A stretch of 41,654 nucleotides of DNA from contig JAGANS010000086.1 of assembly GCA_017624155.1 (NCBI GenBank), positions 1 to 41,654 of the forward strand, in the 5' to 3' direction. Of the stretch, positions 1,704-18,306 are shown piece after piece; position 1 is the stretch's first letter; each line of letters begins with the position of its first letter. The DNA comes from Muribaculaceae bacterium. Lineage in GTDB: Bacteria > Bacteroidota > Bacteroidia > Bacteroidales > Muribaculaceae. The notes beneath the pieces are model-generated. The model ran no database searches, was not told the DNA's origin, and was given only the letters and a program-made list of their open reading frames with translations. Position numbers and translations under genes: made by a program.

Positions 1704-3272
1704 CTATTGTATTTTTATGGGTTGTGTGAGTTCGCTTTGGACATTGTCGCGGTTGAGAGTCGCGATTGCGTACGAACCATCGAGCAAGGCCGTGTAGCTG
1801 TTTTTGGATGTCACCTCAACGAGTTTGGCATCGTACACGCCATCGGCCGACGAAGGTTTCACGCGATAAACGGCGTAGCGCATGCCGTCGCCGGCCGATT
1901 TCCACACCAGAGTGCGGCCGTCGACCGTTACATCGCCCACGGCATTGGGTTCGGGCTCGGTAAGCGGCCCCATCTCGGGGATAAGCATCTTATCGGCATA
2001 AACCTGAGCCAGGTGACTGAGAATATTGATCTTGTTCTCCTTGAAGCATGTGGCATTGAACAGGAAACTGCCGCGGGTGTTGGAGTTGCCGCGCGAAATG
2101 CGGAACTGCTCGTTAAGCTGATTGAGATCCTGATAAGGAGCACCCTCGGCCGGAACGCCAAAGCGGTACAGGGCATGTCCGATGGCGAGGGTAGCTTTGA
2201 AAGAATTGTCGTTCCACCACTTGCACATCTTGGTGAAATTCATAGCGATATTGGAGGTGGAGTTGTAGAGCTGCGGCACGATGAGATCGATCCACCCTTC
2301 CTGACACCATTTACGTACGTCGGCATAGAGGTCGTCGTAGTTCTGCAGTCCGTTGGAATCGGAGCCATAAGTAGGATCGCTGGCCTTGTTGCGCCAGATG
2401 CCGAAGGGAGCGATAGAAAATATGCAACCCGGCTTTTTGGCGACAAGCAGATTGTGTATCTTCTCGATGACCTCGTCGACCTGAGCGCGGCGGAAGTCGC
2501 CCACGGTCTTGTAGGCCGCGCCGTATGTCTTGTAATCGGCCGCATCATCGATCTCGACCCCGCTCTTGGGATAGGGATAGAAGTAGTCGTCGAAGTGTAT
2601 GCCGTCGACATCATACCTGGTGATAAGATCATCGACGACATCTATCAGCAGTTGCTTCACCTCAGGGCAGGCCGGTCGATACATGAGCAGGTTGTCATAT
2701 TTCATAGTCCATTCAGGATGCTTCTTTGCGGGATGGTCGGCAGCACCGTTCTGCGCGAAGGCACTTGCGCTGTTGCTGATGCGGTAGGGATTCATCCATG
2801 CGTGGAATTCCATGCCGCGGGCGTGTACCTGCTCGATCATCCAGCCGAGCACGTCGTAGCCGGGGTCGCGGCCCTGAGTGCCGCACAGATATTCGCTCCA
2901 GGGTTCGAGTGGCGAATTATAGAATGCGTCGGCGCAGGGGCGTACCTGCATTATCACTGCGTTGACGTTATATTTTTCAAATGCATCGAGATACTTAATG
3001 AACTCGTCTTTCTGCAAGGACTCAACATTGGCCTTAGGCCAGTCCATGCGGCCTACGGTAGCCACCCACACACCGCGTATCTCGCGGTCGGGCAGGTTGT
3101 AGGTCACTATCTGAGGATCGGGAGGAGTGGGCGTATCGGGATCATCCGGTTTGGGTGTGGGATTATCGGGAGGAATGGGTGTGGGAGCAGGCTCGTCGTC
3201 GCCGCATGCCGGCAGGGCTGCAGCGGCCATAAGCAGCATCGAGCCTAAGAGCAATAGTTTCTTGATATTCAT
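1704..3272 (-). CDS. GHL10 (DUF187) family glycosidase, surface lipoprotein
   Basis: Predicted lipoprotein glycoside hydrolase of the GHL10/DUF187 (PF02638) type. Translation from ATG 3272 gives a signal peptide with lipobox LPAC (Cys23) followed by GDDE. An acidic stretch after the Cys is the known surface-export signal in Bacteroidetes. The ~19 extra upstream codons are rejected because they precede the signal peptide. A Pro/Thr/Asp-rich linker covers about residues 28-53. The (beta/alpha)8 domain follows, with REIRGVWVATV and VDGIHFDDYFYPYP, typical of the family and carrying its acidic active-site residues. A fibronectin III-like domain ends the protein. E. coli DigH (YddW), of the same family, cleaves peptidoglycan glycan strands whose peptides have been removed by amidases. 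An amidase is encoded three genes upstream. Last gene of the minus-strand locus. Confidence 0.88.
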   Translation of the reverse strand: MNIKKLLLLGSMLLMAAAALPACGDDEPAPTPIPPDNPTPKPDDPDTPTPPDPQIVTYNLPDREIRGVWVATVGRMDWPKANVESLQKDEFIKYLDAFEKYNVNAVIMQVRPCADAFYNSPLEPWSEYLCGTQGRDPGYDVLGWMIEQVHARGMEFHAWMNPYRISNSASAFAQNGAADHPAKKHPEWTMKYDNLLMYRPACPEVKQLLIDVVDDLITRYDVDGIHFDDYFYPYPKSGVEIDDAADYKTYGAAYKTVGDFRRAQVDEVIEKIHNLLVAKKPGCIFSIAPFGIWRNKASDPTYGSDSNGLQNYDDLYADVRKWCQEGWIDLIVPQLYNSTSNIAMNFTKMCKWWNDNSFKATLAIGHALYRFGVPAEGAPYQDLNQLNEQFRISRGNSNTRGSFLFNATCFKENKINILSHLAQVYADKMLIPEMGPLTEPEPNAVGDVTVDGRTLVWKSAGDGMRYAVYRVKPSSADGVYDAKLVEVTSKNSYTALLDGSYAIATLNRDNVQSELTQPIKIQ

Positions 3273-3301
3273 GTGCTGAGGATATATGAATTGTTCAGAG
3301 A

Positions 3302-3336
3302 GTGAAGAGTGAGGCCCGCAGGCCGTCACTCTTCAC
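3302..3336 (-). other. intercistronic hairpin
   Basis: In the 77-bp gap between two minus-strand genes, arms gtgaagagtga (3302-3312) and its complement (3326-3336) pair perfectly, and GGCC/GGCC extends the stem with one bulged base. There is no proper U-run after it on the minus strand. An mRNA-stability or partial-termination element is more likely than a full terminator. Confidence 0.6.
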
Positions 3337-3349
3337 ATATTAGCGCGTA

Positions 3350-4903
3350 TTACTTGACAATCTTGAACGCGCCCTTGACCGTGCGTACCACGTATACGCC
3401 GGCTGCGAGAGCGTTGGTATCGATAACAGTGCCTTCGGCAATCTTGACACCGGCAACTGTATAGACAGCGGCGCCGGCCTCGGCTGTGAGGACACCGCCC
3501 TTGAGGGTGTATTCAGCAACAGCAGCATCGGCAATGCCCGAGGCGCTTACCTCAAGATCAACAAGAGCGGGAGTGGTGAACTCGTTATTCTCGGTGGGAA
3601 GAGCCCAGGCTGCCACGCCGCCTGCCTCGTTGTCGTTATTATATACTGCATAGATATTGTTGACAGCGTCAAAGGCGAGATCAAACGGACGGTTGCCGTA
3701 ACCCGAAGCGCTTACCTCGTAAGCCTTCTCGAGTGTGGGCAGGCCGTTTTCATCGTATGTAGCCTTGGCAACAACAATCACATTACCGTGAGCGGCATCA
3801 GCAACAGCGACCAGCGAGCCGTCGGCATTCGCAGCCATCGCACCGACAGGTGTGCTTCCGGCAAAAATACTCTTGTCGCCGGTCTTGAAATCCCATACAC
3901 CGTTGGCGTTGACGTGGAAGAGGTTGGGATAAGTATCGCTTTCTTCCCAGCGATACTGGCTCACCCACAGACCGCCGCGACCGTCGGAGCTAAGACGATG
4001 GTTGCCGTTGGCGACATTGCCTGTGGTATTGCCACCCCATGTTGCCGACGGAGCTTTGTCCCACGGTGATGCGAGAGTGCCGATGTTGTAGAGGAATATG
4101 TCGCCGTTGCCGCCGTTGATATCCTCATCGTCAGTATAGAGTATGCGCTTGTCGCCGTTGCCATAGAGAGCAATGTCCTGTACGGAACCGTGGATCTTCA
4201 CACCGTCGACAGTAACGAGGCCATTATCGTCGCGTTCGCTCTCAGTAAACACCGATTCCCATTTGCCGCCCAGGTCATCGGGCTCGGCTACAAACACACC
4301 CGACTGTGCGTTGTCAGCCCACGAGCAGATGAACACCTGACCATTTTCAGCCACCGCAACATTATTGGGGTTGGAAGGCGATGCAGCCCATTCGATGCCA
4401 CCGGTGTATGCGGTCTCATTTATCGGCTTGAGGGCTGAGTCGAAGGCATAAAGGCCTGTTTCCACACGTGCGCCCTCCTTGCTGGGAGTGGCCGGCGTAA
4501 CAACATACACATTGCCGAATGCGGGGCTTGTGGGGAACATATCAACAGCGATACCGCGAGCCGAGCTTGTCTGTAGATTAAGGTCGGTACCGTCGGTGAG
4601 CTGTACCACCTCGGTGTTGGCGGCAGCCGATGCTGTGAGGCTCCACTGATATGTGCCGGGCTCGACATTCAGCGAGGGCATATCGACTGTGTTGACGCCC
4701 TTTACGCCTGCGCCGAGGTCGGCGGTAGCGACAGTCTCGCCATTCTTGATCACGTTGAGAACTACCTTGGTAGCCGCATCATTGAGTACGAACGACAGTT
4801 TGCCGTCGTTGACTTTGAGTGCCGATGCATACACATTGGCACCTGCGTAGGCCGAGCCTGCGCCAAGCAGCAGAGCTGCAAGAGGAAGTAAAATCTTCTT
4901 CAT
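3350..4903 (-). CDS. secreted propeller-like protein with FlgD-like and C-terminal sorting domains (paralogue 1)
   Basis: A 517-residue exported protein with signal peptide MKKILLPLAALLLGAGSAYA. Residues about 21-105 (from GANVYASALKV) look like a FlgD-type Ig fold. The next ~330 residues carry repeated strands of the type GQVFICSWADN, GGLWVSQYR and NNIYAVYNND, which read as a six- or seven-bladed beta-propeller. The final ~45 residues (VYTVAGVKIAEGT ... GVYVVRTVKGAFKIVK) match the pattern of a T9SS type A sorting tail. The whole protein is a close relative of the C-terminal half of the amidase at 6631-9297, without the enzyme. It sits between paralogue 2 and the GHL10 gene in one co-directional locus. 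No catalytic motif is seen. Binding or scaffolding of the locus substrate is an inference. Confidence 0.8.
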   Translation of the reverse strand: MKKILLPLAALLLGAGSAYAGANVYASALKVNDGKLSFVLNDAATKVVLNVIKNGETVATADLGAGVKGVNTVDMPSLNVEPGTYQWSLTASAAANTEVVQLTDGTDLNLQTSSARGIAVDMFPTSPAFGNVYVVTPATPSKEGARVETGLYAFDSALKPINETAYTGGIEWAASPSNPNNVAVAENGQVFICSWADNAQSGVFVAEPDDLGGKWESVFTESERDDNGLVTVDGVKIHGSVQDIALYGNGDKRILYTDDEDINGGNGDIFLYNIGTLASPWDKAPSATWGGNTTGNVANGNHRLSSDGRGGLWVSQYRWEESDTYPNLFHVNANGVWDFKTGDKSIFAGSTPVGAMAANADGSLVAVADAAHGNVIVVAKATYDENGLPTLEKAYEVSASGYGNRPFDLAFDAVNNIYAVYNNDNEAGGVAAWALPTENNEFTTPALVDLEVSASGIADAAVAEYTLKGGVLTAEAGAAVYTVAGVKIAEGTVIDTNALAAGVYVVRTVKGAFKIVK

Positions 4904-4942
4904 GGTTGATAGGTTTGTTAATTAGTTGATTGGTATGTGTTA

Positions 4943-4969
4943 TAATGCATAGGCGTCGCCATAGCATTA
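4943..4969 (-). other. imperfect intercistronic hairpin
   Basis: In the 71-bp gap between paralogues 2 and 1, TAATGC (4943-4948) pairs with GCATTA (4964-4969), and an inner GGC/GCC pairs across a 3x3 internal loop. It is weaker than the hairpins in the neighbouring gaps. No U-run follows. Confidence 0.35.
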
Positions 4970-4974
4970 CTATA

Positions 4975-6552
4975 TTATCTCACGATTTTAAGGGTTTCGG
5001 AGCCTGCACGCACGATATAGACACCGCCGGCAAGGGCGTCGGCAGCTATTTCAGTGCCCTCGGCCACCTTCACACCGGCAGCGGTGTATACAACCGCCGG
5101 TACAGCCGAGCGTATCACGCCGTCGCGATATATCAGAGCGCCCTCGGCAGCCACATCAGCGATGGCGGAAGTTTCTTTAATCTCAATAAAACTGTTGGCC
5201 GGGACTTCACATGAGTTGTCAGCTTTGGGTAAAGCATATACATAAATGCCCGAACCACTTAATGCGGCATAGATATTCATAGCATAATCAAAACCAATAC
5301 CAAAAATATTTGAATTTGACAATGCGAATACCGAGCCTTGCGCTTTTATCGAAGGGACGTTACCTTCATTAAAGGTAACATCAAAGATTTTAATTCCGTC
5401 AGGGGTAGCAACAGCTATCATTGAGCCGTCATGGTTTACTGCAAGTGCGCCGGTATTGGTCGTGGTAAATTCATCAGTCCAGAAATCCAATTCATCCTCG
5501 GCGTTAAAGTGAAGCAGTGATGCATAACCGCCGTCATTCGGGAAATCTTTATCAATACGCTGACACATCCAAATGCCGCCATTGCGGTCGGGACGTATAC
5601 GTGCGTTTCGAGTGACCCGGACCTTCACATCGGCTCCATCGAGTTTGAATGTCTTACCAAGTACCTTAGACGGAGCAACTTTCCAGGGAAGATCCGAAGC
5701 ACCGAGATTATAACGAAGAATAGCGCCACCATCGGGATAGTCTTCATCCCATGTATACAGGTGCATATCCTCGTCCTTACCTATAACGCATGCAGTAGGA
5801 GTAGAGCCGCCTACAGCCAAACCATTATCGCTGATCAGACCGTCTGCAGCGCGTACACCGGAGAAAACAGCTGTAAAATCGGTCGATGGATCTGCAGCAT
5901 CCATTACAAAAACGCCGGAGTTTTTATCAGACCAATCGGCAAGGAACACATTTCCGCTCTCGGCCACACAAGCGTCATTCGGCGATGATTGTCCGGGCCA
6001 CGTTATTCCACCTGCATAGGGCACACCGGGAGTCTTGTTTGTAATAGCATCAAGCATATTACTGTTTAACACCAGTACTCCGGCATAAGTACCGCTTGAA
6101 CTTGGCGTTCCTGTTATATAAACATTGCCAAACCATTCGCTTTCCGGATCATTGTTCACATCAACTCCTCTAAGACGACCCCAAACCAAATCAGTGCCCG
6201 GATATGCGGCCATGTCTTTGGGCGTAGCCACTGCCGTAATTTGTCCTTCGGTTGACTCGGCAGTTGCCTTGACGGCCCAGCTATAATTTCCAAATCCGAG
6301 CGGAAGTTGAGTAGTAAATGTATTTGCTCCCTGAGCAAGGCCATCAGATGTTATAGTCTTTGCCACATTGCCGTCTGCATCGTAAATCAGAATATCTACG
6401 GCAGTTGCAGCAACATTGAGAGTGTACGAGAATGTGTAGTCACCATTCTCAGCCTTATCATATTTAAGACCGGTCGCATACACATTTGCGCCGGCGGAGG
6501 CGGTGAGGCCTCCGAGGAGCAGAGCTGCAAACGACAGAATCAGTTTGTTCAT
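4975..6552 (-). CDS. secreted propeller-like protein with FlgD-like and C-terminal sorting domains (paralogue 2)
   Basis: A 525-residue exported protein starting MNKLILSFAALLLGGLTASA, with the same order of parts as its downstream neighbour: FlgD-like Ig domain (from GANVYATGLKYD), propeller-like repeats (FGNVYITGTPSS, GNVFLADWSDKNSGVFVMDA, GGIWMCQRIDKD) and a T9SS-like tail (VYTAAGVKVAEGTEI ... GVYIVRAGSETLKIVR). Sequence identity to paralogue 1 and the amidase C-terminal half is clear in the tail and in the blade motifs, weaker elsewhere. By eye the central part of the gene (about 5180-6480) is more AT-rich than both neighbours, which may point to a different history. No enzyme motif. Role in the locus unknown. 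Confidence 0.8.
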   Translation of the reverse strand: MNKLILSFAALLLGGLTASAGANVYATGLKYDKAENGDYTFSYTLNVAATAVDILIYDADGNVAKTITSDGLAQGANTFTTQLPLGFGNYSWAVKATAESTEGQITAVATPKDMAAYPGTDLVWGRLRGVDVNNDPESEWFGNVYITGTPSSSGTYAGVLVLNSNMLDAITNKTPGVPYAGGITWPGQSSPNDACVAESGNVFLADWSDKNSGVFVMDAADPSTDFTAVFSGVRAADGLISDNGLAVGGSTPTACVIGKDEDMHLYTWDEDYPDGGAILRYNLGASDLPWKVAPSKVLGKTFKLDGADVKVRVTRNARIRPDRNGGIWMCQRIDKDFPNDGGYASLLHFNAEDELDFWTDEFTTTNTGALAVNHDGSMIAVATPDGIKIFDVTFNEGNVPSIKAQGSVFALSNSNIFGIGFDYAMNIYAALSGSGIYVYALPKADNSCEVPANSFIEIKETSAIADVAAEGALIYRDGVIRSAVPAVVYTAAGVKVAEGTEIAADALAGGVYIVRAGSETLKIVR

Positions 6553-6630: not shown

Positions 6631-9297
6631 TTATTTAACTACTTTGAGAGTCTTGGAGCCTGAGCGGGCCACATACACACCGGCGGCAAAGTCGCCGAGG
6701 TCGATGGCATAGCCCTGTGCTACCTTGTGACCGGCCACGTCGTAGAGCTCGACAAGGGCGCCGGCGGCGCTGACCACACCGTCGTGCAGGGTGATCTCGG
6801 TGGCATCTGCCACTGCCGAGAATACGCCCGATGTCATCTTGAGAGGTGCGTTGGCCATGGTGGTGAACTCGTTATTGTCTTTAGGCAGGCCCCATACTGC
6901 TATACCGCCCTGATTGTCGTTGTAGGCAATGTAGAGGTTGCCGGCGGCATCGAAGTCGCAGTCGAAGGGACGCGAGCCGTAGGTCGAACCCATCGTATAC
7001 TTGAGGGTGAGCGATGGCTTGCCGTTCTCGTCGTAGGTGGCTGCGAGCACACGGATGTCGCTCTTGCCGGCCACTGCGATGAGCGAGCCGTCGACACTGA
7101 CGCCCATTGCACCCATCGGGCCCGAGGTCTTGATCATATTGGCATCGCCGCAGTAGTAGTCAAACTCGCCATTGGCATTAAGGTGGAGCAGCGAGGGTAC
7201 ACCATCACTGTTGGTATCGCGGTTCTGGCCCACCCAAAGGCCGCCATGGCCGTCAGGCTCGATGCAGTCGCTCTGGTTGCGCAGTTTGTTCACACCATTG
7301 TTCATGAACAGGGGATAGATATACGACGGTGCGGCAGTCCACAGGTCGGTGGATTCGCCCAGGTCGTAGCGGGTGATGTACGACTTGTCGATAGTAGGAA
7401 TCTCGGCCGTACCGCCGGGATAGAGATCTTCGTCGGAAGTATAGAGTTTAAGACCAGCACCCGAACCAGTGACGCAGAGGTCGACTATCGATCCGTGGAT
7501 CTTGGCATCACCTTCGCTTGCAAGGCCATCGCCGTTGCGCGCGCCGCCGAATACTTCGCGGAACTCGGCAGGATTGGCGGGATCCATTACCCACACGCCT
7601 GAATGTCCGTCGCTCCAGTCGCAGATATATACATTGCCGTCGTCGGCCACATCAAGGCGCATGGGCGATGAGTTGCCGCTCCACTTCTGTCCGCCCTGGA
7701 AGGGAGTGTCGCCCTGACCGGTAACATCGGTGAGAGCTGCGTCGAGCACATAGACGCCGGTACCCTGACGCTGGCCTTTCTTTCCGTTGGCGGCAATCGA
7801 GGTAGCGTATACGCGGCCAAACCACGGGCTGGCGGGATTGGCATCGACAGCTACCGAGCGGGCGTTGGCAATCTCGAGCAGAGGGTCGCCGTTGACCGAG
7901 AACTGCACGGGCTCGCCGGTGATGGGATCAGCCGATGCGGTGATGCTCCACATGTAATCGCCGTCGGCTACACCGTCGGACTCAAAACCTACGGTATTGG
8001 TGCCGCGTGCCTGCGGGCCCAGATCGATCGTCTTCACCACCTTGCCGTCCTTGATAAGATTGAGAGTGACAGCGGTGGCATCGTCGTTGAGGGTGAAGCG
8101 CACTGAGTTGGCCTGCACGGGTTCAAGAGCCGAGGCATACACGTTGGCATGGCCCGAAGCCGTGGAAGGATCGTAGGAGGGGTCGTCCATCATGGCGATG
8201 GGGCCGCGTACCTTGGCAGCCTCGCACACTACATCTTCCTCATACTTTGTGTAGCCGTCTGCCTCGATGGCGAGGTGGTATGTGCCGGGGACGAGGTCGG
8301 GGAAGTAGAACAGACCGTTATAGTTGTTGTCGGTGGTATAGGTGAGGTTCACGCCGTTGCCGGTGAGAGTCACCTTGGCCCCGTTGATGGGCTTGTACTG
8401 GTCGTGATCGCCGAACGATGCGCCCAGATACAGCGGATCGCGGAAGATACGCTTGGCATCCTTGGCGGCGCCGGCGATGATGCCTGTCGCGGGCTGCGGA
8501 GCCTGAAAATAGTCGCAGATACCGGTATATAGCTGATAAGCCACGATATTGCTGTAATCCCGGCTGAGCATACGGTGAGCCTCGGGCTTATAGTCGTGGA
8601 AGGCTATCTCGGCCAGGAAGCCGGGACGCCACATGTGGCGGAACACGCCCAGATGGTAGCCCTCGGTCCACGATGAATAGAATGCCGAGTCCGACACGAC
8701 GTAGGGTGAGGCGGCACTCTTCATCGACTGCCAGCATGTGAGGCCGTTGTCGTGCAGATGGCGCCACGCCACAGTACCCATATCCTTGGATGCCGGTATG
8801 GCGGGATCGTTGATATTGAATGGCTGTCCGGGCACAGGATCGGCGCCGCGATACATCACCATCAGGTGGTTGGAGCCATTGCCGTTGGAGTGTATGGATA
8901 CAAACATGTCGGCGGCCCAGTCGGTGGCCTCTTCACCGATTGTAACGAGGATGCGGTCGTCCTCGGGACGGTTCTGCGTGCGCGACATCATCACATCGGC
9001 ACCGGCGGCTTCGAGCAGGCGCTGCAGTTCCAGTCCGCGCCACAGGTTGTGCTTCGATTCCCAGCAGCCTTCTTCGCATACCGAGGGGAAGGGGATGGTA
9101 GGATTCCAACGGTCGGTGGAGTTTGAGCCATCGGAGCGATAGCCATTTGCAAATTCACCCGGGATACGGGCCCCCTGCGAAGCCTCATAACCGCCGTGTC
9201 CGGGATTGATGTAGATTTTTTTGCCCTCAAGCGACTGCGCGCCTGCCACAGGGATGGCCAGCACGGCTATAAGGGCCGACAGTAGAATTTTTTTCAT
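6631..9297 (-). CDS. secreted N-acetylmuramoyl-L-alanine amidase fused to FlgD-like/propeller module
   Basis: Cuts the bond between MurNAc and L-Ala in peptidoglycan. Start at ATG 9297 gives signal peptide MKKILLSALIAVLAIPVAGA. The 34 upstream in-frame codons are rejected because they precede it. The Amidase_3 domain covers about residues 24-265, with Zn ligands His34 (NPGHGG), Glu80 (CWESKHN) and His136 (SIHSNG) and catalytic Glu230 (LAEIAFHD), so all key residues are intact. Next comes a carboxypeptidase-regulatory-like beta domain (about 305-380, GLFYFPDLVPGTYHLAIEA), then a FlgD-like Ig domain (from HANVYASALEP), a propeller-like region and a T9SS-like tail (GVYVARSGSKTLKVVK). At 888 residues it is far longer than a housekeeping amidase (about 300-450). 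The C-terminal ~500 residues recur as two stand-alone paralogues downstream. The tail suggests export to the cell surface or medium. Confidence 0.9.
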   Translation of the reverse strand: MKKILLSALIAVLAIPVAGAQSLEGKKIYINPGHGGYEASQGARIPGEFANGYRSDGSNSTDRWNPTIPFPSVCEEGCWESKHNLWRGLELQRLLEAAGADVMMSRTQNRPEDDRILVTIGEEATDWAADMFVSIHSNGNGSNHLMVMYRGADPVPGQPFNINDPAIPASKDMGTVAWRHLHDNGLTCWQSMKSAASPYVVSDSAFYSSWTEGYHLGVFRHMWRPGFLAEIAFHDYKPEAHRMLSRDYSNIVAYQLYTGICDYFQAPQPATGIIAGAAKDAKRIFRDPLYLGASFGDHDQYKPINGAKVTLTGNGVNLTYTTDNNYNGLFYFPDLVPGTYHLAIEADGYTKYEEDVVCEAAKVRGPIAMMDDPSYDPSTASGHANVYASALEPVQANSVRFTLNDDATAVTLNLIKDGKVVKTIDLGPQARGTNTVGFESDGVADGDYMWSITASADPITGEPVQFSVNGDPLLEIANARSVAVDANPASPWFGRVYATSIAANGKKGQRQGTGVYVLDAALTDVTGQGDTPFQGGQKWSGNSSPMRLDVADDGNVYICDWSDGHSGVWVMDPANPAEFREVFGGARNGDGLASEGDAKIHGSIVDLCVTGSGAGLKLYTSDEDLYPGGTAEIPTIDKSYITRYDLGESTDLWTAAPSYIYPLFMNNGVNKLRNQSDCIEPDGHGGLWVGQNRDTNSDGVPSLLHLNANGEFDYYCGDANMIKTSGPMGAMGVSVDGSLIAVAGKSDIRVLAATYDENGKPSLTLKYTMGSTYGSRPFDCDFDAAGNLYIAYNDNQGGIAVWGLPKDNNEFTTMANAPLKMTSGVFSAVADATEITLHDGVVSAAGALVELYDVAGHKVAQGYAIDLGDFAAGVYVARSGSKTLKVVK

Positions 9298-9341
9298 TGT
9301 ATGGTAAATAAGGTAATGATTGAGTGTTGGTGAGAAAAAAT

Positions 9342-9431
9342 AGCCGGCAGCCTGCCTCGGATTGTTTTGTCCATATATCCATTCCATTTCATGAATCACT
9401 TTTTAAGGCTGTAGTCGGCAGACTGCCGGCT
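9342..9431 (-). terminator. possible attenuating hairpin between lipoprotein and amidase genes
   Basis: On the minus strand AGCCGGCAG (9431-9423) can pair with CTGCCGGCT (9350-9342), and the second arm is followed by ATTTTTT, as in an intrinsic terminator, though the loop is about 72 nt. A short local hairpin (cggca 9416-9420 / tgccg 9424-9428) competes with it. It sits 29 bp after the stop at 9460. It may reduce read-through from the SusCD part into the enzyme genes. Confidence 0.45.
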
Positions 9432-9459
9432 TTTTTCTATATATTTATATATAGGAGGA

Positions 9460-11136
9460 TCAGAGCTTCTTGCCTACCTCCACCATGATGAAGCCGGCAC
9501 GCGGGGCGGCAGCCATAAGGCGTAGCTTTCCGTCAGGGCCGATTCCGGCGCCTGTGTTAGCCGAGAATGCCGAGCAGTTGGAGCCGTTGAGGCTATATTC
9601 CCACAGCACGGGACGGTCGCCCTCGCTGAAGTTGGTGAACGCGAGCGAGGTGTTCAGGCCGGCCGAAAGATCGTAGACGCGCAGGGTCTGTGCGAAGCGG
9701 TTGCTCCAGCCGAAGCAGTTGGTGGTGAGCAGATAGCGTTCGCCATTGAAGTTGACTACGCGGGCATCGTTCTCGGCGGTGCCGGGATAGTCGCAACCCT
9801 CCTTGGCATCAATGATGTTGATGACATTGAGATCCCGGTCAACGAGCAGAATAGCGCGCTGATAGGTCGATGTGAGGGTATATACGCCCTCCTCGCCGAT
9901 CACCGGATTGATTGCGCCGTAGTAGGCAACGCTGTAGGGAGGAGTGATCACCTCCGGCTCGGGCGATACGGTGTTGAAGCCCTCGACCTTGAAGCGGATG
10001 GCCATACCGCCGGCCGCATGGTCGAAGAACCACAGGTAGCCGTTGCCCTGTTCGTCGATAGTGGCGCTCATGTTGTCGCCCCAGCGGCCCTTCACTGCAT
10101 CGCTGCCGGGGAATGTGACAACTGTCTCGCATACTGCATCGCGGTCAGCCCAGTGGTAAATCTTGAGCGGAGCGGCATCGGCCAGACCGGTCGACAGATT
10201 ACATATATAGATATGACCGTGAGCCAGTGTACCCGAGCTAACCTCGAATGTACCGCCGGCGATACCGGTCTTGTCGAGCATGTGATCAAGCGGAGCGCCT
10301 GCGGCTACCTCGTCCCACAGCAGCACCTTGGGATTGGTACCGCCCTGACGCGACACAATCAGCAGCTGCTCGCCGTCGAACTGCGACCAACGGGTGTTCT
10401 CGCCCTCATAGTCGGCATATATCATGCTGCCCTCGTGGGCCGAATGATCGAATACAGTGGCATCGGCAAAGTCGCCGCCGAAGACGGGCACACCGGCAAA
10501 TGATATGTCGTAGGTCATTGTGAGGCCCATGAAGTCGATCACCAGCTGACCGGGGTCGTCGGCGCTGATCACGCCGTCCTGCATGTTGGTGAATGTATAG
10601 GTGGCACGGCGGGGAAGAGTGCTCACGCTCATCGGCTCGGCCGTAGCCGACCCCTCACAGTTGAGGAATACCGTGCCGGTAGCATCGCTTACAAAGCCGG
10701 TGCACAGCTCGCCCGAGGCATCCTTGCACCGGATGGCAGTGAGCACGGGAGTCTCCTTGGGATCGAGCATCACGAAGCGGGCGTGATACACACTCGAGTT
10801 CTGATTGTTCTGCACGGTGATGTCGGCGGTGCCGCTGCTCACGTCGTAGGTGTCCTGATCGAGCTTGGCGCCGAGCGACAGCTTGGCGGTAAAGCGCACG
10901 GCCTGAATATCCGTCTCGGCTGGGATCACAAACTGGATGGTCTTGTTCTCCTCGTCGAGTTCGCCGGGGATATTCTCGGCGCCGGTAAAGCCGCCGTTTG
11001 CCACGGCGATATTATATATGAACGTTTCGCCCGAGGGGTTGTCGTAGTTGGTGTCGTCATCGTCGCAGGCCGAGGTGATACCGGCGAGCGCAACAGCTGC
11101 ACACAGGCTGAGGGCGACTGATTTATATCGTTTCAT
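9460..11136 (-). CDS. surface lipoprotein in the SusE/F position (possibly DUF4623-like)
   Basis: A 558-residue lipoprotein: MKRYKSVALSLCAAVALAGI, lipobox TSAC, then DDDD, the acidic surface-export signal. The first ~110 mature residues form a beta domain (TFIYNIAVANGGF ... YHARFVML) resembling Ig-like domains of PUL accessory proteins. The rest is rich in beta strands with propeller-like motifs (GHIYICNLSTG, GNGYLWFFDHA, YGAINPVIGEEGVY). The overall look reminds me of Bacteroides DUF4623 proteins, but this is not certain. It lies 30 bp after susD, where PULs usually encode substrate-binding lipoproteins of the SusE/F kind, so a role in holding the substrate at the surface is inferred from position. 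No catalytic motif is visible. Confidence 0.75.
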   Translation of the reverse strand: MKRYKSVALSLCAAVALAGITSACDDDDTNYDNPSGETFIYNIAVANGGFTGAENIPGELDEENKTIQFVIPAETDIQAVRFTAKLSLGAKLDQDTYDVSSGTADITVQNNQNSSVYHARFVMLDPKETPVLTAIRCKDASGELCTGFVSDATGTVFLNCEGSATAEPMSVSTLPRRATYTFTNMQDGVISADDPGQLVIDFMGLTMTYDISFAGVPVFGGDFADATVFDHSAHEGSMIYADYEGENTRWSQFDGEQLLIVSRQGGTNPKVLLWDEVAAGAPLDHMLDKTGIAGGTFEVSSGTLAHGHIYICNLSTGLADAAPLKIYHWADRDAVCETVVTFPGSDAVKGRWGDNMSATIDEQGNGYLWFFDHAAGGMAIRFKVEGFNTVSPEPEVITPPYSVAYYGAINPVIGEEGVYTLTSTYQRAILLVDRDLNVINIIDAKEGCDYPGTAENDARVVNFNGERYLLTTNCFGWSNRFAQTLRVYDLSAGLNTSLAFTNFSEGDRPVLWEYSLNGSNCSAFSANTGAGIGPDGKLRLMAAAPRAGFIMVEVGKKL

Positions 11137-11166: not shown

Positions 11167-12873
11167 TCATTTCCACTGCGGATTCTGCTCGAGCACATAT
11201 CCGTTTTGCTCGAAGAGCTGTATCTGGTCGGTGGGGATGGGACGTATATAATCGCGGGCCTGAGGAGCGGGACGCTGCTGGGCGGCGGGGGTCACCACCA
11301 GATAGCCCTCGGTGGCGCCGGCGGGCAGCACTGCCTTGGTCTTGTCGGCCTTCTCAAAGTCGCTGTACGAGATCCATGCGCCGGTGCTGATGGCGGGATT
11401 GTATTCGCTCCACAGGTATATGAGCTTCTTCCAGCGCTTGAGGTCATCGAGGCGCGAGCCCTCGAAGGCAAGCTCCACGCGGCGTTCGCGACGGATCTCC
11501 CACAGCAGCGAGGGCACATCGGGATCGCGGTTGGGATCATCGTACACCTGACCGCCGACAGCAGGCTGGCCGCCGATCACCTGCAGGTGGGGCATCTTCA
11601 CGTCCGGACGGTCGCGCAGCACGTTGATCGACTTGTCGAGATCGGCCTGAGACAGCGAGCCAAGTTCATAGCATATCTCGGCATAGTCGACAAGGATCTG
11701 ACCGAGGCGATACTGCGGGCAATCGGTGGTGTTCTTGGCATTGGCGGTATAGATGAGGTCGCTGCTGCCCTCCTTGCTGCGGTCCATGTATTTGCACAGC
11801 GAGAAGCCCGAGCGCGAGTAGGCAGCGCCTGTCACATCCTCGCCGGCGATATAATACTTGTCGGGGCGGATGATGAGGCTCAGACGCGGATCACGGTCGG
11901 CAAAGTATTCAGCAGCGGTCTTGGGGCAGAACGTGATGTCCTTGGCATAGACAGGCATACCGTCAGATGCGAGGAATGCGTCGGCGAAGTCGCGGCTGGG
12001 GCCTGTCTGCGGCTGCAGATAGTTGTAGTTGAGCACACTGTGGCCGTTCTTGGTGTCGATATAGCGCTTGTAGAGGATTACCTCGGGATTGCCCGAGAGG
12101 TCCTCGCTGGCAAAGAGCGACGCATAGTCGGGAGCCAGACTGTATTTGCCCGAGTTCATCACTGTGAGGCAGGCTTCCTTGGCCAGTTCAAGGCACTGAC
12201 GGGCCATATCGGCGTTGATGCCGTGATACTTGAGGAATGTGCCTTCGCGCAGCAGACGCTGAGATATCATGGCGGCAGCCACATACTTGTTGATCTGAAG
12301 CTCGCCGTCGTTTTCACGGATATTCTCGAGTGCGAAACGCAGGTCGGCCAGCACGCGCGGCATCACGAACTTGTCGCGGCTGTCGCGGGGCTTGTAAAGC
12401 GAGTCAAGCTGGGTGCTGCTGATGCGGGTGGTATACCACTGCGTGTCGCCGTAGTAGAACGACAGGTCGCAATACTCGATGCCGCGGAGCAGGCGGCCGA
12501 TGCCGCGCCAGTGGTTGCGGGTTGCATCGTCGAGGCCGGGAACCTTCTCCACGCCTTCGAGCAGATAGTTGGCACGGCGCACATACGAGTAGGTGTAGTT
12601 GCCGTCGGTGCCGCTCACCACCAGATAGGGCCAGGTGGTCTGGGTCACGTCGCTGGTGTTGTCGGTAAGCTTCTCGTTATAGCCGAAGTTGCCGCCGAAG
12701 CCCGTGAAATATGACGGGTATGAGCCGTTGGCAAACGTGCGGATGTGCGACTCGGTCTTCCAGTAGTCGTTCTCGTCTACCTGGTCAACCGGCGACACCT
12801 CGAGGTAGTCGTTGCACGATGCAAGACCTGCGCCGAGTGCCATTGCACAGAGTATTATTCTTGAGGATTTCAT
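11167..12873 (-). CDS. SusD/RagB family nutrient-binding lipoprotein
   Basis: The lid component of a SusCD importer: an outer-membrane lipoprotein that captures an oligomeric substrate and closes over the SusC channel. Signal peptide MKSSRIILCAMALGAGLASC with Cys at residue 20, followed by NDYLEVSPVDQV, the typical SusD N-terminus. TPR-like helices follow. The C-terminal region has the family pattern LLWEIRRERRVELAFEGSRLDDLKRW (shown in parts: EIRRERRVELAFEG) and ends QNGYVLEQNPQW. 568 residues is usual. The gap to susC is 21 bp, and the two genes certainly form one unit. Substrate cannot be told from the sequence; the neighbouring amidase and GHL10 genes suggest peptidoglycan fragments. Confidence 0.96.
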   Translation of the reverse strand: MKSSRIILCAMALGAGLASCNDYLEVSPVDQVDENDYWKTESHIRTFANGSYPSYFTGFGGNFGYNEKLTDNTSDVTQTTWPYLVVSGTDGNYTYSYVRRANYLLEGVEKVPGLDDATRNHWRGIGRLLRGIEYCDLSFYYGDTQWYTTRISSTQLDSLYKPRDSRDKFVMPRVLADLRFALENIRENDGELQINKYVAAAMISQRLLREGTFLKYHGINADMARQCLELAKEACLTVMNSGKYSLAPDYASLFASEDLSGNPEVILYKRYIDTKNGHSVLNYNYLQPQTGPSRDFADAFLASDGMPVYAKDITFCPKTAAEYFADRDPRLSLIIRPDKYYIAGEDVTGAAYSRSGFSLCKYMDRSKEGSSDLIYTANAKNTTDCPQYRLGQILVDYAEICYELGSLSQADLDKSINVLRDRPDVKMPHLQVIGGQPAVGGQVYDDPNRDPDVPSLLWEIRRERRVELAFEGSRLDDLKRWKKLIYLWSEYNPAISTGAWISYSDFEKADKTKAVLPAGATEGYLVVTPAAQQRPAPQARDYIRPIPTDQIQLFEQNGYVLEQNPQWK

Positions 12874-12894: not shown

Positions 12895-15800
12895 TTAGAA
12901 TGTGACTTGCAGACCGAATGAATATTCCTTGCTGAAGGGATATGAACGGCCGATATAGCCGCCGTCGCCTGTGGCGGTACGGGTCTCGGGATCGATGGGC
13001 ACACCGTTGAGATGATCCCATGTGAGGAGGTTCTCGAATGATGCGTATATGCGCAGCTTGGAGATGAGAGCCTTGCGGGTGATCTTCTCGGGCAGCGTGT
13101 AGCCGAAAGTGAGGTTCTTCCAGCGGCAGTAGGCCATGTTGAGCAGGTAGCGCGTCTGCTTGCGGAAGTTGGGGTTGGCGCTCTGGTAGTTGAGGGCCCA
13201 TGGACGGGGATAGAAAGCGTCGGTATTGTCCTCGGTCCAGTAGTCCATGTGGTGCTGGTAGTATGCCTCGCCATAGTGCCAGCCGGGAATCACGAGCTGG
13301 CCCGTGCCCCACAGATCGCGCTTGCCTACGCCCTGGAAGAATACGCTCAGGTCGAAGCCCTTGTACTGCAGGTCGAGACGCGCGCCGTACTGGTAGCGGG
13401 GTGTGGTGTTGCCTATCACCTTCATGTCGCCGTGATTGTCGATGGTGGGCACGCCGTTGGTGCGGCCGTCGTCGATCTGGCCGTCGCCGTCCTGGTCGAC
13501 ATATTTCACGTCGCCGGGGAGGAATTGGAAGCTTGTCTGTCCGTACTGGTCGACAAGATACTGCTGCGATGCCACGCCGTCGGCATAGCCTGTGATGCGG
13601 CCGTCGGCGTCGTAAGTGAAGTCGGCGGCGGTGAAGAGACGGTCGGTCTCATAGCCCCAGATCTCGCCGTAGGTCTTGCCGTTGTAGCGGTAGTCGCAGC
13701 GGCGCTCGTTGGGGTCGACATTGTTGAACTTGCCGGTAGCGTCGCTTATGTTGGCCGATACGGTCATGTTGAGACCGAAGGGGAAGCTGTGGTGATAGTC
13801 CACGGCAAGTTCCCAGCCGCGGGTGGTAAGGTGACCGTAATTAGTCATAGGAGCTGCCTGGCCGAAGGTAGAAGGCAGTGATGCGCCGGTGTTGATGAGA
13901 TCGGTGGTCTTGCGGCTGAACCAGTCGAACGATGCGCCGAAGCGGTTGTTGAAGAATCGCAGGTCGACACCGATATCGGTCGTGGCCACCTTCTCCCATG
14001 TGAAGCCGTCGGCCAGGGCCTTAGGCATACCGAAGGTATACACGCCGTTGTCGCCGATGATCCAGGAGCTTTCGCTCATCGACATCACAGGCAGGAACAT
14101 CGAGTTGGATACCTGCTGCGAACCGATCTTACCCCAGCTGCCGCGGATCTTGAAGAACGACCATACGGGATTGAGGCTTTCCATGAATTTCTCATTGGAC
14201 ACGATCCAGCCGGCCGAGAACGAGGGGAAGAAGCCCCAGTGCTTGCCGCGCGGGAAGCGGCTTGAGCCGTCGTAGCGCAGGTTGGCCTCAAGGAGATAAC
14301 GGCCGTCGTAGTCGTAGTTGACGCGGGCGAAGAAGCCTGTCAGTGTATTCTTGTTATTGTAGGATGTGGCTGTCATCTCGCCGGTACCGAGCGAGATCTC
14401 GGGACGGTCGGCAAGCACGAGGTCAAGTTTTTTGCCGGTCTGGCCGTAGTCGTTGTAGCTCTCGATGTTGGTGCCGACAAATGCGCCGATGTTACCGATC
14501 TTCTCGTTCTCCCATTTGTAGCGGAGCAGGGCGTTGAACACGTGGTAATCGGAGAAGGCGCTGGCCTTGCTCGACATGTTGTTGGATGCCGTTGTCCATG
14601 TCTTGTACACAAAGTCGTTGAGGCTCCAGAAGTCATAGCCGCTGGCTTCGCCGCCGTTTGTCTCGGTGTAGCGGTTCACATGGGTGAATGTATAATCAGC
14701 CTCGAGGGTGATCCCCTTGTAGATGTCGATTATCGTGCCGAGGTTGACGCGCATCCAGTTGCTGCGTATCTTGTTCATGTTTGCCTGTGCGCGCTCGGAA
14801 ATCGAGTTGTGCAGAGGCTCGCCGTTAAGGGTGCCGTAGGGGAAGGTTGCGGGCCAGCGGTACAGATAATAGAACTGGTCGTAGTTGGAGTTGAACTCGT
14901 AGGGATTGCGGGTGTCGGTACGGGTGTACATGAGCTTGGTGTGGAATTCAAACCACTTGCTGAGCTGGCTGCGGGTGCCGAACGATATGTTGTAGCGCTC
15001 CTGCTTGTCGTTGTTCACCTTCATCATGCCGGTGTTGCCCATATAGCCGAGGCCTACATTATATGATGTCTTGCCCGACGAGCCGTTGATGCTGAAGTTG
15101 TGGGTCTGCATGAACGAGCTGCTCTTTGTCATCATGTCGTAAGGATCCCACGAGCGGTAAAACTGCAGGTTGCCGTTGATCTTCTCGTAGTCGCGGCCAT
15201 AGACGAGCTCGGGCGACAGATTGTATCCGCCGTACACGCGCTCCCATTCCTTCATGCGCTCGATGGTGTTCCAGTCCCAGTACATGTTGATGTCGTTGGT
15301 CACCGAGCTCACGCCCTTGGAGCGCTCGGCACCGAGCAGTGCCAGTGTGGCGCCCTCCGAGCCGATGGCGAGCTCGGGCTTCACGGTCGGCTTCTTCCAT
15401 GCGAAGTTGTCGCTGTAGCTCACGGTGAATTTCTCGCCGAGCTTGGCTTTCTTGGTGGTGATGAGCACTACGCCGAATGCGCCCTTGATACCATAGATCG
15501 AGGCCGAGGCGGCATCCTTGAGCACCGATATACTCTCAATGTCATCGGGGCTCACTACGCTCAGGTCGTTCACCTCCACGTTGTCGACGAGGATCAGGGG
15601 GTTGGTGGAACCCTGAATCGAGCCGATCACACCGCGGATCTGCATAGAGGCGTTGTTGCCGGGCTTGCCGTTCGATGAGGTTACGTTAAGGCCGGGGACC
15701 GCACCCTGCAGGCCGCTGGTCACGTTGGTGATGGGCCGGCCTTCGAGCTGCTTGCCTACATCGACAGTACTGACGGCGCCGGTGAGGTTGACACGCTTCT

Positions 15801-16503
15801 GTGTGCCATAGCCCACGGCCACGACTTCCTGCAGCAGATTCTCGTCGTTGCTCATGTGGATTGTAAGATCACTGCCGCTGCCCACCGATACCGTCATCGG
15901 CTTCATGCCTACATACGAGATCTCGATCTTGGACGAGGGGGAGAAGTTGCCCTTCAGCGTGAAGTGGCCGTCGATGTCGGTGGCCACACCGGTCTTCTGG
16001 CCCTTGAGACGCACGCTGGCGCCGATTGCAGGCTCGCCCTCGGCATCGAGCACGGTGCCGGTGACTGTGGTGATGCCCTTGTCGTCGACCGAAGCGTCCT
16101 GATCGGCGCCGGCTCGGTGACTGCCGTCGAGATGATTGCGCGACAGCACTACGTTGGTGCCTTCGATGGCATAGAATATATTCTTGCCGCTAAGCATCTT
16201 GTCGAGCACGTTGCGCAGGGGTTCGTTGTTGGCGCTGACGCTTACCTTTGTCCCGGTGTCGACATTGTTGTTGATCACAAAGAGATAGCCGGTCTGGCCC
16301 TCGATCTGTTCAATGACATTCCTGAGCGGTTGCTGGTTTACGGTAAGAGTCACTTTGTCTGACTTCACCTTGCCCGACGGGGCCGGTGCCGCCGACAGGC
16401 CGATGGCCCCGGCTATAAGCATCAGCAGCCCCAGCATAAGGCATCTCATCAGAGACTTGGCTGTGTGAGAGGGCGCATACAGGCCCTCATGCTTTGGATT
16501 CAT
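12895..16503 (-). CDS. SusC/RagA family TonB-dependent transporter with STN domain
   Basis: Outer-membrane channel that imports the substrate captured by SusD, powered by TonB-ExbBD. A 1202-residue protein: N-terminal hydrophobic signal (CLMLGLLMLIAGAIGLSAAP), STN domain at about residues 50-120 (VTLTVNQQPLRNVIEQIEG), carboxypeptidase-regulatory-like domain at about 148-235 (GEPAIGASVRLKGQKTGVAT), plug (VAVGYGTQKRVNLTGAVSTV, SISVLKDAASASIYG) and a long barrel ending FGLQVTF. The STN domain is known to pass a substrate signal to a FecR-type anti-sigma factor. The FecR and ECF sigma genes lie directly upstream, so trans-envelope induction of this locus is expected. Start ATG 16503 is the first that keeps the signal peptide. 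Confidence 0.97.
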   Translation of the reverse strand: MNPKHEGLYAPSHTAKSLMRCLMLGLLMLIAGAIGLSAAPAPSGKVKSDKVTLTVNQQPLRNVIEQIEGQTGYLFVINNNVDTGTKVSVSANNEPLRNVLDKMLSGKNIFYAIEGTNVVLSRNHLDGSHRAGADQDASVDDKGITTVTGTVLDAEGEPAIGASVRLKGQKTGVATDIDGHFTLKGNFSPSSKIEISYVGMKPMTVSVGSGSDLTIHMSNDENLLQEVVAVGYGTQKRVNLTGAVSTVDVGKQLEGRPITNVTSGLQGAVPGLNVTSSNGKPGNNASMQIRGVIGSIQGSTNPLILVDNVEVNDLSVVSPDDIESISVLKDAASASIYGIKGAFGVVLITTKKAKLGEKFTVSYSDNFAWKKPTVKPELAIGSEGATLALLGAERSKGVSSVTNDINMYWDWNTIERMKEWERVYGGYNLSPELVYGRDYEKINGNLQFYRSWDPYDMMTKSSSFMQTHNFSINGSSGKTSYNVGLGYMGNTGMMKVNNDKQERYNISFGTRSQLSKWFEFHTKLMYTRTDTRNPYEFNSNYDQFYYLYRWPATFPYGTLNGEPLHNSISERAQANMNKIRSNWMRVNLGTIIDIYKGITLEADYTFTHVNRYTETNGGEASGYDFWSLNDFVYKTWTTASNNMSSKASAFSDYHVFNALLRYKWENEKIGNIGAFVGTNIESYNDYGQTGKKLDLVLADRPEISLGTGEMTATSYNNKNTLTGFFARVNYDYDGRYLLEANLRYDGSSRFPRGKHWGFFPSFSAGWIVSNEKFMESLNPVWSFFKIRGSWGKIGSQQVSNSMFLPVMSMSESSWIIGDNGVYTFGMPKALADGFTWEKVATTDIGVDLRFFNNRFGASFDWFSRKTTDLINTGASLPSTFGQAAPMTNYGHLTTRGWELAVDYHHSFPFGLNMTVSANISDATGKFNNVDPNERRCDYRYNGKTYGEIWGYETDRLFTAADFTYDADGRITGYADGVASQQYLVDQYGQTSFQFLPGDVKYVDQDGDGQIDDGRTNGVPTIDNHGDMKVIGNTTPRYQYGARLDLQYKGFDLSVFFQGVGKRDLWGTGQLVIPGWHYGEAYYQHHMDYWTEDNTDAFYPRPWALNYQSANPNFRKQTRYLLNMAYCRWKNLTFGYTLPEKITRKALISKLRIYASFENLLTWDHLNGVPIDPETRTATGDGGYIGRSYPFSKEYSFGLQVTF

Positions 16504-16676: not shown

Positions 16677-17618
16677 TCATTTTATGATGATATGGCGGCG
16701 GTCCTTATCGCTCTCATATTCAAAGCGGATGTCGTGTCGGAGGGTGTTGAGGGCCTGCTCGATGCCCTCGTCGAGATAGAACTTGCCGCTGAAGCGCACA
16801 TCGGCGATATCGGGGCGACGCATCTCCACGCTCACTCCGTAATACTTCTCAAAGCGGGCTATGATGCTCGACAGCGGCAGCTGCCTGAAGCTTATTATGC
16901 CGCTCACCCATTCGAGGGTCTCGGGCTCCACATCGCTTATCGCGAAGGCTCCGCCATCAGTCAGCGACAGGCACTTGCCGGGGGTAAGACTATATACATG
17001 GTTGTCACCGCCGGCAAAGTCAACCGAGCCCTTGACGAGGCTTACCGAAAAGTCGGCGCTCGCCTTATAGGCATCGACATTGAATTCCGTACCCGTGACG
17101 CGCACATCACCATGACCGGTGCCTACTGTAAAAGGATGTGCCGGATCCTTGGCCACGGCAAAATATGCCTCGCCATCGATCTCTACCCGGCGGCCCTTGC
17201 CGGTAAAGGCACCCGGAAAGCGCATGGTGGAATTTGAATTTAGCCATACGGAAGTGCCGTCGGCCAGTACGATATTGAGACGCTGCCCCGCCGGAACGGA
17301 GATCTGCTGCATGGGAAGTTCCTGCACGGCATCGGTCTTCATATACAGCTGCACACCCAGCGTGATGAGCACGGCAACAGCCGCAGCGGCCATCCGACTA
17401 ACCCATATACGGATGCTGCTGCGGCGTGCCTGCTGTATACGCGCGCAGCCCGATACCGTCTCATCGGCATCGAGCATGCTTACTATATCATAGAATTTGC
17501 GCTCAGACATGAACCGGCTGCGATTCTCGTCCGAAGCTTCTACCCAGCGGCGGATACGGCTGCGCTCTTCATCGCTGGCCGCGCCGCTGAAATATCGGTA
17601 TAGGTGATCCTTTTCCAT
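16677..17618 (-). CDS. FecR family anti-sigma factor (DUF4974 C-terminus)
   Basis: Inner-membrane regulator that holds the ECF sigma factor and receives the signal from the STN domain of SusC. 313 residues: cytoplasmic N-terminal sigma-binding helices (MEKDHLYRYFSGAASDEE), a single membrane span at about 77-97 (MAAAAVAVLITLGVQLYM), a periplasmic FecR domain (VPAGQRLNIVLADGTSVWLN, VEIDGEAYFAVAKD, VTGTEFNVDAY) and a C-terminal DUF4974 domain (PLSSIIARFEKYYGVSVEM ... RFEYESDK). The order ECF sigma, FecR, SusC, SusD is the standard arrangement of ECF-controlled Bacteroidetes uptake loci. Confidence 0.95.
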   Translation of the reverse strand: MEKDHLYRYFSGAASDEERSRIRRWVEASDENRSRFMSERKFYDIVSMLDADETVSGCARIQQARRSSIRIWVSRMAAAAVAVLITLGVQLYMKTDAVQELPMQQISVPAGQRLNIVLADGTSVWLNSNSTMRFPGAFTGKGRRVEIDGEAYFAVAKDPAHPFTVGTGHGDVRVTGTEFNVDAYKASADFSVSLVKGSVDFAGGDNHVYSLTPGKCLSLTDGGAFAISDVEPETLEWVSGIISFRQLPLSSIIARFEKYYGVSVEMRRPDIADVRFSGKFYLDEGIEQALNTLRHDIRFEYESDKDRRHIIIK

Positions 17619-17623
17619 GGTCG

Positions 17624-17657
17624 AGTATAGGGGGCCTGTTTTATGGCGTCCTATACT
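17624..17657 (-). other. 8-bp inverted repeat directly upstream of the FecR gene
   Basis: AGTATAGG (17624-17631) and CCTATACT (17650-17657), 18 nt apart, lie just ahead of the FecR start at 17618. This can be a hairpin in the sigma/anti-sigma transcript or a protein site. The rest of the 124-bp gap shows no clear -7 box on the minus strand. Confidence 0.4.
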
Positions 17658-17742
17658 ATGTTCGTTTCAAATCCCGGATACCCTAAACGAATTTTGAAAA
17701 AATTTTCAACTTTTTAAGAAAAAAGCTGCTCCTCAGTAAGAA

Positions 17743-18306
17743 TCAGTTGATAAACAATATTGCAAGTATGATATAAATATCTCCGAAACGGTCGCGCATC
17801 AGTCTCAGCGCCGACGACATGCGGTATTCCACAGTCTTGACCGACACGCCCAGTTCGACCGCTATCTCTGCATAGGTCTTCCGCTCTATACGGTTCATTA
17901 CAAAAATCCGCCTGGTGGCCTCGGGCAGATCGTCAATGGCGGCCTTGAAGCGGCGCTGCATCTCCTTGTCGTAAAGCCAGTCGGGGTCAAAAGCCTGCAG
18001 GGTGGCGATGCTCATCTCAAGTTCCCACTGGGCATCGCTCAGCATGTCGGCCTCGGCATTGCGTTTCACCTGCTGATGCCGCAGATAATCGATACACTTA
18101 CCCTTGATGATGCCAAGCAGATACGACTCGGGATTGCGGGTGGTGTCGAGGTCGGCGCGATGCTCCCACAGATATGCGAAACTTTCCATCACTATATCCT
18201 GGGCGTGCTGTGGTGTGTGTATGTACAGCATGGCAAACCGTTCGAATCTGCGACGCGACTCGAACAGGCGCTCAATGACTGTATATGGATTCATCTCGTT
18301 GGACAT
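17743..18306 (-). CDS. ECF-type RNA polymerase sigma-70 factor
   Basis: Extracytoplasmic-function sigma factor of the Bacteroidetes PUL type, expected to switch on the susC promoter when FecR releases it. 187 residues from ATG 18306 (a GTG directly before it at 18309 and an ATG at 18294 are alternatives). Region 2 is visible as AQDIVMESFAYLWEH with YLLGIIKGKCIDYLR. Region 4 is LPEATRRIFVMNRIERKTY followed by the helix-turn-helix AEIAVELGVSVKTVEYRMSS. The short hydrophobic C-terminus (DIYIILAILFIN) is common in this group. A promoter with an inverted repeat lies about 70 bp upstream. Confidence 0.95.
   Translation of the reverse strand: MSNEMNPYTVIERLFESRRRFERFAMLYIHTPQHAQDIVMESFAYLWEHRADLDTTRNPESYLLGIIKGKCIDYLRHQQVKRNAEADMLSDAQWELEMSIATLQAFDPDWLYDKEMQRRFKAAIDDLPEATRRIFVMNRIERKTYAEIAVELGVSVKTVEYRMSSALRLMRDRFGDIYIILAILFIN

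Follow-up and report, generated by a model that had tools for sequence, protein, structure and literature searches.

The 41,654-nucleotide stretch of contig JAGANS010000086.1 of a Muribaculaceae bacterium (GenBank assembly GCA_017624155.1, a 2.44-Mb draft genome that is 87.8% complete), hereafter the window, carries on its minus strand a nine-gene locus (1704-18309) which is very probably of the polysaccharide utilization locus (PUL) type, with the peptidoglycan of other or dead bacteria as its substrate. The locus encodes a predicted N-acetylmuramoyl-L-alanine amidase and a lipoprotein of the GHL10 (DUF187) family together with a SusC-SusD transporter pair and a lipoprotein of the DUF4623 family. 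Judged from sequence, there is good support both for peptidoglycan as the target and for a functional connection of the amidase with GHL10: it comes from conserved synteny, from natural fusions of the two enzymes, from the specificity of the SusC group that accompanies them, and from N-acetylmuramic acid (MurNAc) salvage genes next to a related locus, L164 (locus, contig and genome labels are our own).

An initial annotation of the window had proposed this target from gene content: a complete uptake and regulation set, no classical polysaccharidase, and as recognizable enzymes only the amidase and a GHL10 lipoprotein. Profile searches of the nine proteins against Pfam and NCBIfam bore this out (Table 1). 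The sigma and anti-sigma factors, STN-bearing SusC, SusD, surface lipoprotein and enzymes form one co-directional block with intergenic spacing of 21 to 173 bp, in which susC and susD are adjacent as in Sus-like PULs, and no further glycosidase or lyase family reached the Pfam cut-off in any of the nine proteins. All of its parts come from known families, and its gene content is consistent with a Sus-like PUL.

Conservation of the locus within Muribaculaceae

Orthologues of the amidase (at least 58% identity) were found in 5 of 49 genomes of the genus, and all five loci share the order SusC-SusD-DUF4623-amidase-propeller(s)-GHL10; a sigma factor is present in each, and FecR was called in four and went uncalled in genome G045. 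Across the family, the locus occurs in 10 of 297 genomes, which answers the initial annotation's suggestion to look for the amidase, GHL10 and SusCD set elsewhere. The same number of genomes contains a DUF4623 match of at least 160 bits, and SusC, SusD, amidase and GHL10 adjoin it in all 10. The closest named relatives of the window amidase come from records titled Muribaculaceae, Porphyromonadaceae or Bacteroidales; some of the carriers' titles mention rumen or rectum, and others give no habitat.

The likeness of SusC was rejected as sufficient proof of a common substrate, as a paralogue in the window's own genome (L166, contig C25) scores 788 bits, similar to distant loci. We therefore built a SusC tree and ran the window SusC against the 297 family genomes. 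In the genome search, the top 10 matches (1242 to 2800 bits) were the SusC genes of the 10 loci, followed by the next match at 971 bits, and GHL10, amidase and DUF4623 were all absent from 14 stretches centered on SusC genes of lower rank (a selection, not all, of the hits between 971 and 688 bits, some on short contigs). The enzymes are thus conserved with their transporter, as in a PUL, which suggests a common substrate. In the tree, built by a quick method from rows preselected by locus and supported by the Shimodaira-Hasegawa-like approximate likelihood ratio test (SH-aLRT) only, the locus genes form one clade of 29 rows (SH-aLRT 95) with one paralogue from the window's own genome inside it. 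At L166 (C25, 6812-12233) a SusC/SusD pair follows a 795-aa secreted protein, which presumably resembles endonuclease I, and the contig ends soon after.

A broader association was seen between long amidases and GHL10: at least two strong GHL10 copies were detected in 15 of 16 genus genomes with a long amidase (10 of 11 when the five in which the locus's own GHL10 counts are excluded), compared to 1 of 33 without, figures that are uncorrected for kinship.

Synteny and fusions beyond the family

To look outside the family, named genomes were scanned with the amidase domain, and the best 80 of 344 relatives gave 79 loci, all titled as Bacteroidota groups. A separate GHL10 gene (at least 50 bits) was present in 30 of these, SusC and SusD in 18, and both in 15; DUF4623 was found in 17 of the 18 with SusC and SusD. 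Counting only the 37 named loci that span 20 kb or more, the GHL10 gene lies about 10 kb or nearer to the amidase in 22, where ~1.0 would be expected from the density in the window's genus (161 matches in 119.3 Mb, or 1.35 per Mb) rather than from that of each family. Two loci with Paludibacteraceae titles encode Amidase_3 and GHL10 in a single protein, a form that the count of 30 leaves out, with both domains above the Pfam cut-offs (L111:9932-14098 and L124:9932-16624).

An order-level search with DUF4623 covered 393 genomes; five, among them that of the window, reached E 1e-20 or lower. In all four others, which lie outside the family, SusC, SusD, DUF4623 and GHL10 are contiguous. A relative of MurK-like kinases is encoded nearby in two of the four, and at L164 genes for NamZ (282 bits), a BadF-type MurK-like kinase and MurQ (308 bits, cut-off 302) stand in a row upstream of DUF4623-GHL10-SusCD. 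Both kinase-bearing loci also encode a 1015-aa protein, and the one scanned contains Golvesin_C; because a protein of L131 combines Golvesin_C with a weak Amidase_3 match, another amidase is possible in these two loci.

A different arrangement was observed at L098, L106, L107, L114 and L130, where clusters without SusCD contain a long GHL10, proteins of ~800-850 aa, a ~300-aa protein and an amidase of ~800 aa. The one ~800-850-aa protein scanned, at L106, is an NAGPA phosphodiester glycosidase with a Por tail, and the ~300-aa protein scanned, at L117, carries PD40 repeats. These five clusters look like exported wall-dismantling sets.

The amidase and its propeller paralogues

The amidase gene most likely begins at the Met codon at 9297 and not at the start of the open reading frame at 9399. 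Its product matches Amidase_3 at 43.9 bits (cut-off 27), with CarboxypepD_reg and FlgD_ig on the same protein. The initial annotation had pointed to intact zinc ligands, and His34, Glu80, His136 and Glu230 (numbered from this Met), which we take to be the zinc ligands and catalytic glutamate, are indeed present; they are unchanged in the five orthologues and invariant in all 45 amidase domains compared (that of the window plus those from 44 of the 79 named loci). Further residues outside this set, such as D62 and R63, are also invariant in the 45 domains. A structure model of residues 1-399 (predicted local distance difference test score, pLDDT, 84.7) retrieved amidase entries at Foldseek ranks 1-24, with E ~1e-11 to Amidase_3 structures, and zinc carboxypeptidases and others from rank 25; we count among the amidases the integrative model of YrvJ at rank 23. 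A sequence search of PDB with the whole amidase gave no match. By domain, fold and conserved residues, the protein belongs to the peptidoglycan Amidase_3 family and is predicted to cleave the MurNAc-L-Ala bond.

The model of the C-terminal part (pLDDT 88) matched best an uncharacterized Bacteroides thetaiotaomicron protein (3hrp), followed by NHL, teneurin and other propeller-bearing proteins, with low TM-scores by query length. The two genes that follow the amidase encode paralogues of this C-terminal part. The C-termini of the amidases vary: that of the window resembles a type IX secretion system (T9SS) tail below the family cut-off, L097 has a CHU_C type IX signal (70 bits, cut-off 27), and L148 has Dockerin_1. 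The window amidase is probably exported. Its most likely route is type IX secretion, of which SprA and the PorU sortase score above cut-off in the same genome.

The GHL10 lipoprotein

The GHL10 lipoprotein is probably an enzyme that cuts the glycan strands of peptidoglycan, by analogy with two characterized relatives. Its closest solved relative is Cwp19 (E 1.8e-93, query residues 80-445 aligned), and it is 34% identical to Escherichia coli DigH over 366 aa; the domain is colinear with both. Cwp19 is reported as a lytic transglycosylase of Clostridioides difficile that releases anhydro-muropeptides plus some reducing-end products from whole peptidoglycan, in the part of the source consulted (PMC6016235), and DigH, in the portion available of a second study, as a division enzyme that degrades the denuded glycans left behind by amidases (PMC12288456).

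The initial annotation had called the protein DigH-like. The similarity stands, but as the best label it was weakened, with Cwp19 as the best solved relative; moreover, because another GHL10 protein of the same genome (contig C35) is equally close to DigH (36% over 371), likeness to DigH is no special mark of this gene. In a GHL10 tree, which includes two own-genome rows on long branches and one row (L146) identical to L071, the lipoprotein-type genes from Muribaculaceae and Prevotellaceae loci cluster together (98/96). GHL10 genes from loci titled Bacteroides nordii, Parabacteroides and Paludibacteraceae are placed elsewhere (83/75), with inverted gene order.

The uptake proteins and salvage genes

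The protein initially described as a surface lipoprotein belongs to the DUF4623 family, in which 4ftd (E 1.3e-43) is a relative of solved structure; from sequence comparison, it is probably a surface glycan-binding protein. The SusD relatives in PDB are too distant to hint at a ligand, and the solved relatives of SusC include RagA, though not among the best ones.

The window's own genome encodes MurQ (309.5 bits, cut-off 302), two NamZ proteins above cut-off, two MurK-like kinases assigned by similarity only, an AmpG-family transporter at 144 bits (below the cut-off of 350) and an LdcA-like protein, also below cut-off. On contig C50 (L154, 10000-29999), MurQ, a MurK-like kinase, NamZ and the AmpG-family transporter form a MurNAc salvage island, which also contains a NagX-like membrane protein (below cut-off) and a 1002-aa protein.

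Gene layout and neighbors

Table 1. Features of the nine-gene locus.
Feature	Position	Strand	Basis
ECF (extracytoplasmic function) sigma factor, Bacteroidetes type	17743..18309	-	TIGR02985 153 bits, cut-off 126
FecR anti-sigma factor	16677..17618	-	FecR and FecR_C above cut-off
SusC/RagA TonB-dependent transporter with N-terminal STN domain	12895..16503	-	TIGR04056 844 bits, STN 35 bits
SusD surface lipoprotein	11167..12873	-	SusD_RagB 92.9 bits; 21 bp after susC
DUF4623 lipoprotein	9460..11136	-	PF15416 228 bits; 30 bp after susD; lipobox-like Cys then DDDD
Gap with strong inverted repeat and T run	9298..9459	-	minimum free energy -42.5 kcal/mol, z -4.9
N-acetylmuramoyl-L-alanine amidase (predicted), probably exported	6631..9297	-	Amidase_3, CarboxypepD_reg, FlgD_ig, NHL-like beta-propeller, T9SS-like tail
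Propeller paralogue of amidase C-terminal part	4975..6552	-	38% identity; FlgD_ig weak, below cut-off
Second propeller paralogue of amidase C-terminal part	3350..4903	-	44% identity
GHL10 (DUF187) lipoprotein	1704..3272	-	PF02638 241.7 bits; lipobox-like Cys then GDDE

The 162-nt gap between DUF4623 on the uptake side and the amidase on the enzyme side contains a GC-rich inverted repeat with arms of ~15 bp and a loop of ~60 nt. A second copy was absent from 15 other stretches of the same genome that were searched. The hairpin could be a terminator or attenuator that separates uptake from enzyme genes; its connection to the locus is uncertain.

The locus is flanked by a Fic/DOC protein (272-1585, plus strand) and an MBOAT acyltransferase (18427-20073, minus strand). 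Within the available stretches, no match to either gene adjoins the locus in its four other carriers of the genus, so we excluded both from the locus. Farther along the window (23758-29465, minus strand), an AcrB-type efflux pump and an outer-membrane efflux protein are encoded.

Proposed function and alternatives

Taken together, the data favor a nutritional locus in which the amidase, exported most likely via the type IX system, would strip stem peptides from peptidoglycan, and the GHL10 lipoprotein, probably at the cell surface, would cut the MurNAc-GlcNAc (N-acetylglucosamine) strands as a lytic transglycosylase or hydrolase, as its relatives Cwp19 and DigH suggest. At the cell surface, DUF4623 and the propeller proteins would hold polymer or enzyme, DUF4623 and SusD would bind the pieces, and SusCD would import short glycans. 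In the periplasm and cytoplasm, NamZ, the AmpG-like transporter, the MurK-like kinases and MurQ, whose genes are present, would convert them to GlcNAc-6-phosphate. FecIR-type signaling couples transporter occupancy to transcription; by the same principle, an occupied transporter would activate this locus through its sigma/FecR/STN set. In this scheme the amidase may act first, GHL10 may prefer bare glycan like DigH or peptide-bearing strands like Cwp19, and glycan rather than stem peptides would be the imported product.

Several observations weigh against this reading or narrow it. First, the T9SS-type tail of the window amidase scores 19.5 bits, below the family cut-off of 23, and the MurNAc salvage genes of the genome are on contigs other than that of the locus. 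Second, GHL10 matches occur in all 49 genus genomes, and membership in this family is by itself no specific sign. None of 10 stretches surrounding the genus's more distant amidases had a SusC or GHL10 match, and the linkage therefore holds for this group of amidases, not for the whole family. The DUF4623 cut-off was exceeded in 18 of the 297 genomes, in 8 of them at <52 bits, and the two weak places L150 and L151 had no match to any locus protein. Third, a separate GHL10 and the SusC-SusD pair are both lacking in 46 of the 79 named loci (many of these 46 being short contigs), and GHL10 was not called in 3 of the 18 with SusCD and amidase (L070, L072, L105). The second SusC that the window's genome has in the clade, at L166, likewise lies on a short contig in which GHL10 and amidase are absent. 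Lastly, an amidase like that of the window is absent from all four DUF4623 loci outside the family (16-20 kb examined). The lasting unit is therefore SusCD-DUF4623-GHL10, to which the amidase is a frequent addition. Of the partnership originally proposed for amidase and GHL10, the working link is well supported by the linkage in named loci and the two fusions, but the amidase falls outside the minimal module.

The alternative that survives best, although we consider it unlikely, accepts peptidoglycan as the substrate but takes the nutrient carried by SusCD to be stem peptides or peptide-bearing muropeptides, with GHL10 merely opening the mesh. The amidase reaction would free peptides, and RagAB, whose transporter subunit is among the solved relatives of SusC, reportedly takes up peptides. 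RagA is not among the best of these relatives, however, and in the four outside loci GHL10 has no such amidase next to it. In one of the four, L164, the genes for NamZ, a MurK-like kinase and MurQ lie beside the core, an indication in favor of the sugar part.

It is distinctly improbable that the exported amidase and GHL10 are primarily weapons that lyse living competitors, with uptake secondary. The probable export of the amidase would suit such a role, as would the SusCD-less cluster L106, whose phosphodiester glycosidase with a T9SS tail may target teichoic-acid linkages. Nutrition is favored by the single block with SusCD and by a SusC group tied to the enzymes, and no immunity gene was recognized among the nine genes.

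More doubtful still is another polymer, an exopolysaccharide or glycoconjugate, attacked by an amidase and GHL10 of shifted specificity. The locus has just two recognizable enzymes, neither characterized in this group, and the amidase has the invariant D62 and R63 outside its catalytic set. Against this, the catalytic-site residues are intact, the first 24 Foldseek ranks are amidases, MurQ and NamZ are neighbors in L164, and both Cwp19 and DigH, in what the two reports cited above describe, act on peptidoglycan. The GHL10 enzyme of E. coli works at division, but a role in remodeling the wall of the producing cell itself, as it divides or its envelope grows, is highly improbable, since the block is accessory (5 of 49 genus genomes), SusCD and surface lipoproteins are located outside the cell wall, and the other 44 genomes also have GHL10 matches, so that division needs no such block.

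Extending the peptidoglycan reading beyond the window, we regard it as an evenly balanced proposition that these loci represent a Bacteroidales-wide class for peptidoglycan utilization. Its mark would be a single SusC clade together with DUF4623 and GHL10, and exported amidases, in some cases as fusions with GHL10, would be later additions. Together with the SusCD-less clusters of amidase, GHL10 and phosphodiester glycosidase, they would form an extracellular route for whole walls, those of Gram-positive bacteria included, with SusCD as the missing outer-membrane step of salvage. Dead bacteria leave a large pool of peptidoglycan in the gut, and the locus suggests a testable route by which fragments of it may pass the outer membrane. 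DUF4623 and GHL10 beside SusCD would serve as a marker for finding wall-eating Bacteroidales, and DUF4623 itself would move from a family of unknown function to a candidate binder of peptidoglycan glycans. The locus could also influence which muropeptides reach host receptors.

Comparison with known systems

Among the open-access titles and abstract openings listed in searches on PULs with peptidoglycan or amidase, none described such a locus, and a like search on DUF4623 yielded no paper. Like Sus-like PULs, the locus joins SusC-SusD, a surface lipoprotein, enzymes and an ECF sigma/FecR and STN set in one block, but its enzymes are a peptidoglycan-type amidase and GHL10 in place of a polysaccharidase family above Pfam cut-offs. 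A PUL survey states, in the part available, that glycoside hydrolase families targeting peptidoglycan are strongly underrepresented in PULs, yet occur in several (PMC6499787). Cwp19 shares the GHL10 domain, but the C. difficile protein is described in the sections consulted as a Gram-positive autolysin with cell-wall-binding CWB2 repeats (PMC6016235), whereas here GHL10 is a lipoprotein within a SusCD locus. DigH is likewise a GHL10 protein, but its gene in E. coli does not lie within an uptake locus.

The closest parallel for the downstream steps is the MurNAc salvage of Tannerella forsythia (MurTKQ, NamZ, AmpG), which the window's genome matches with MurQ, NamZ, MurK-like kinases and an AmpG-family protein. 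Extracts of T. forsythia are reported, in the part of that study consulted, to attack peptidoglycan with amidase, lytic transglycosylase and muramidase activities (PMC7670621). In the accounts of this salvage that we consulted, an outer-membrane SusCD step is not named, and the window locus would supply one.

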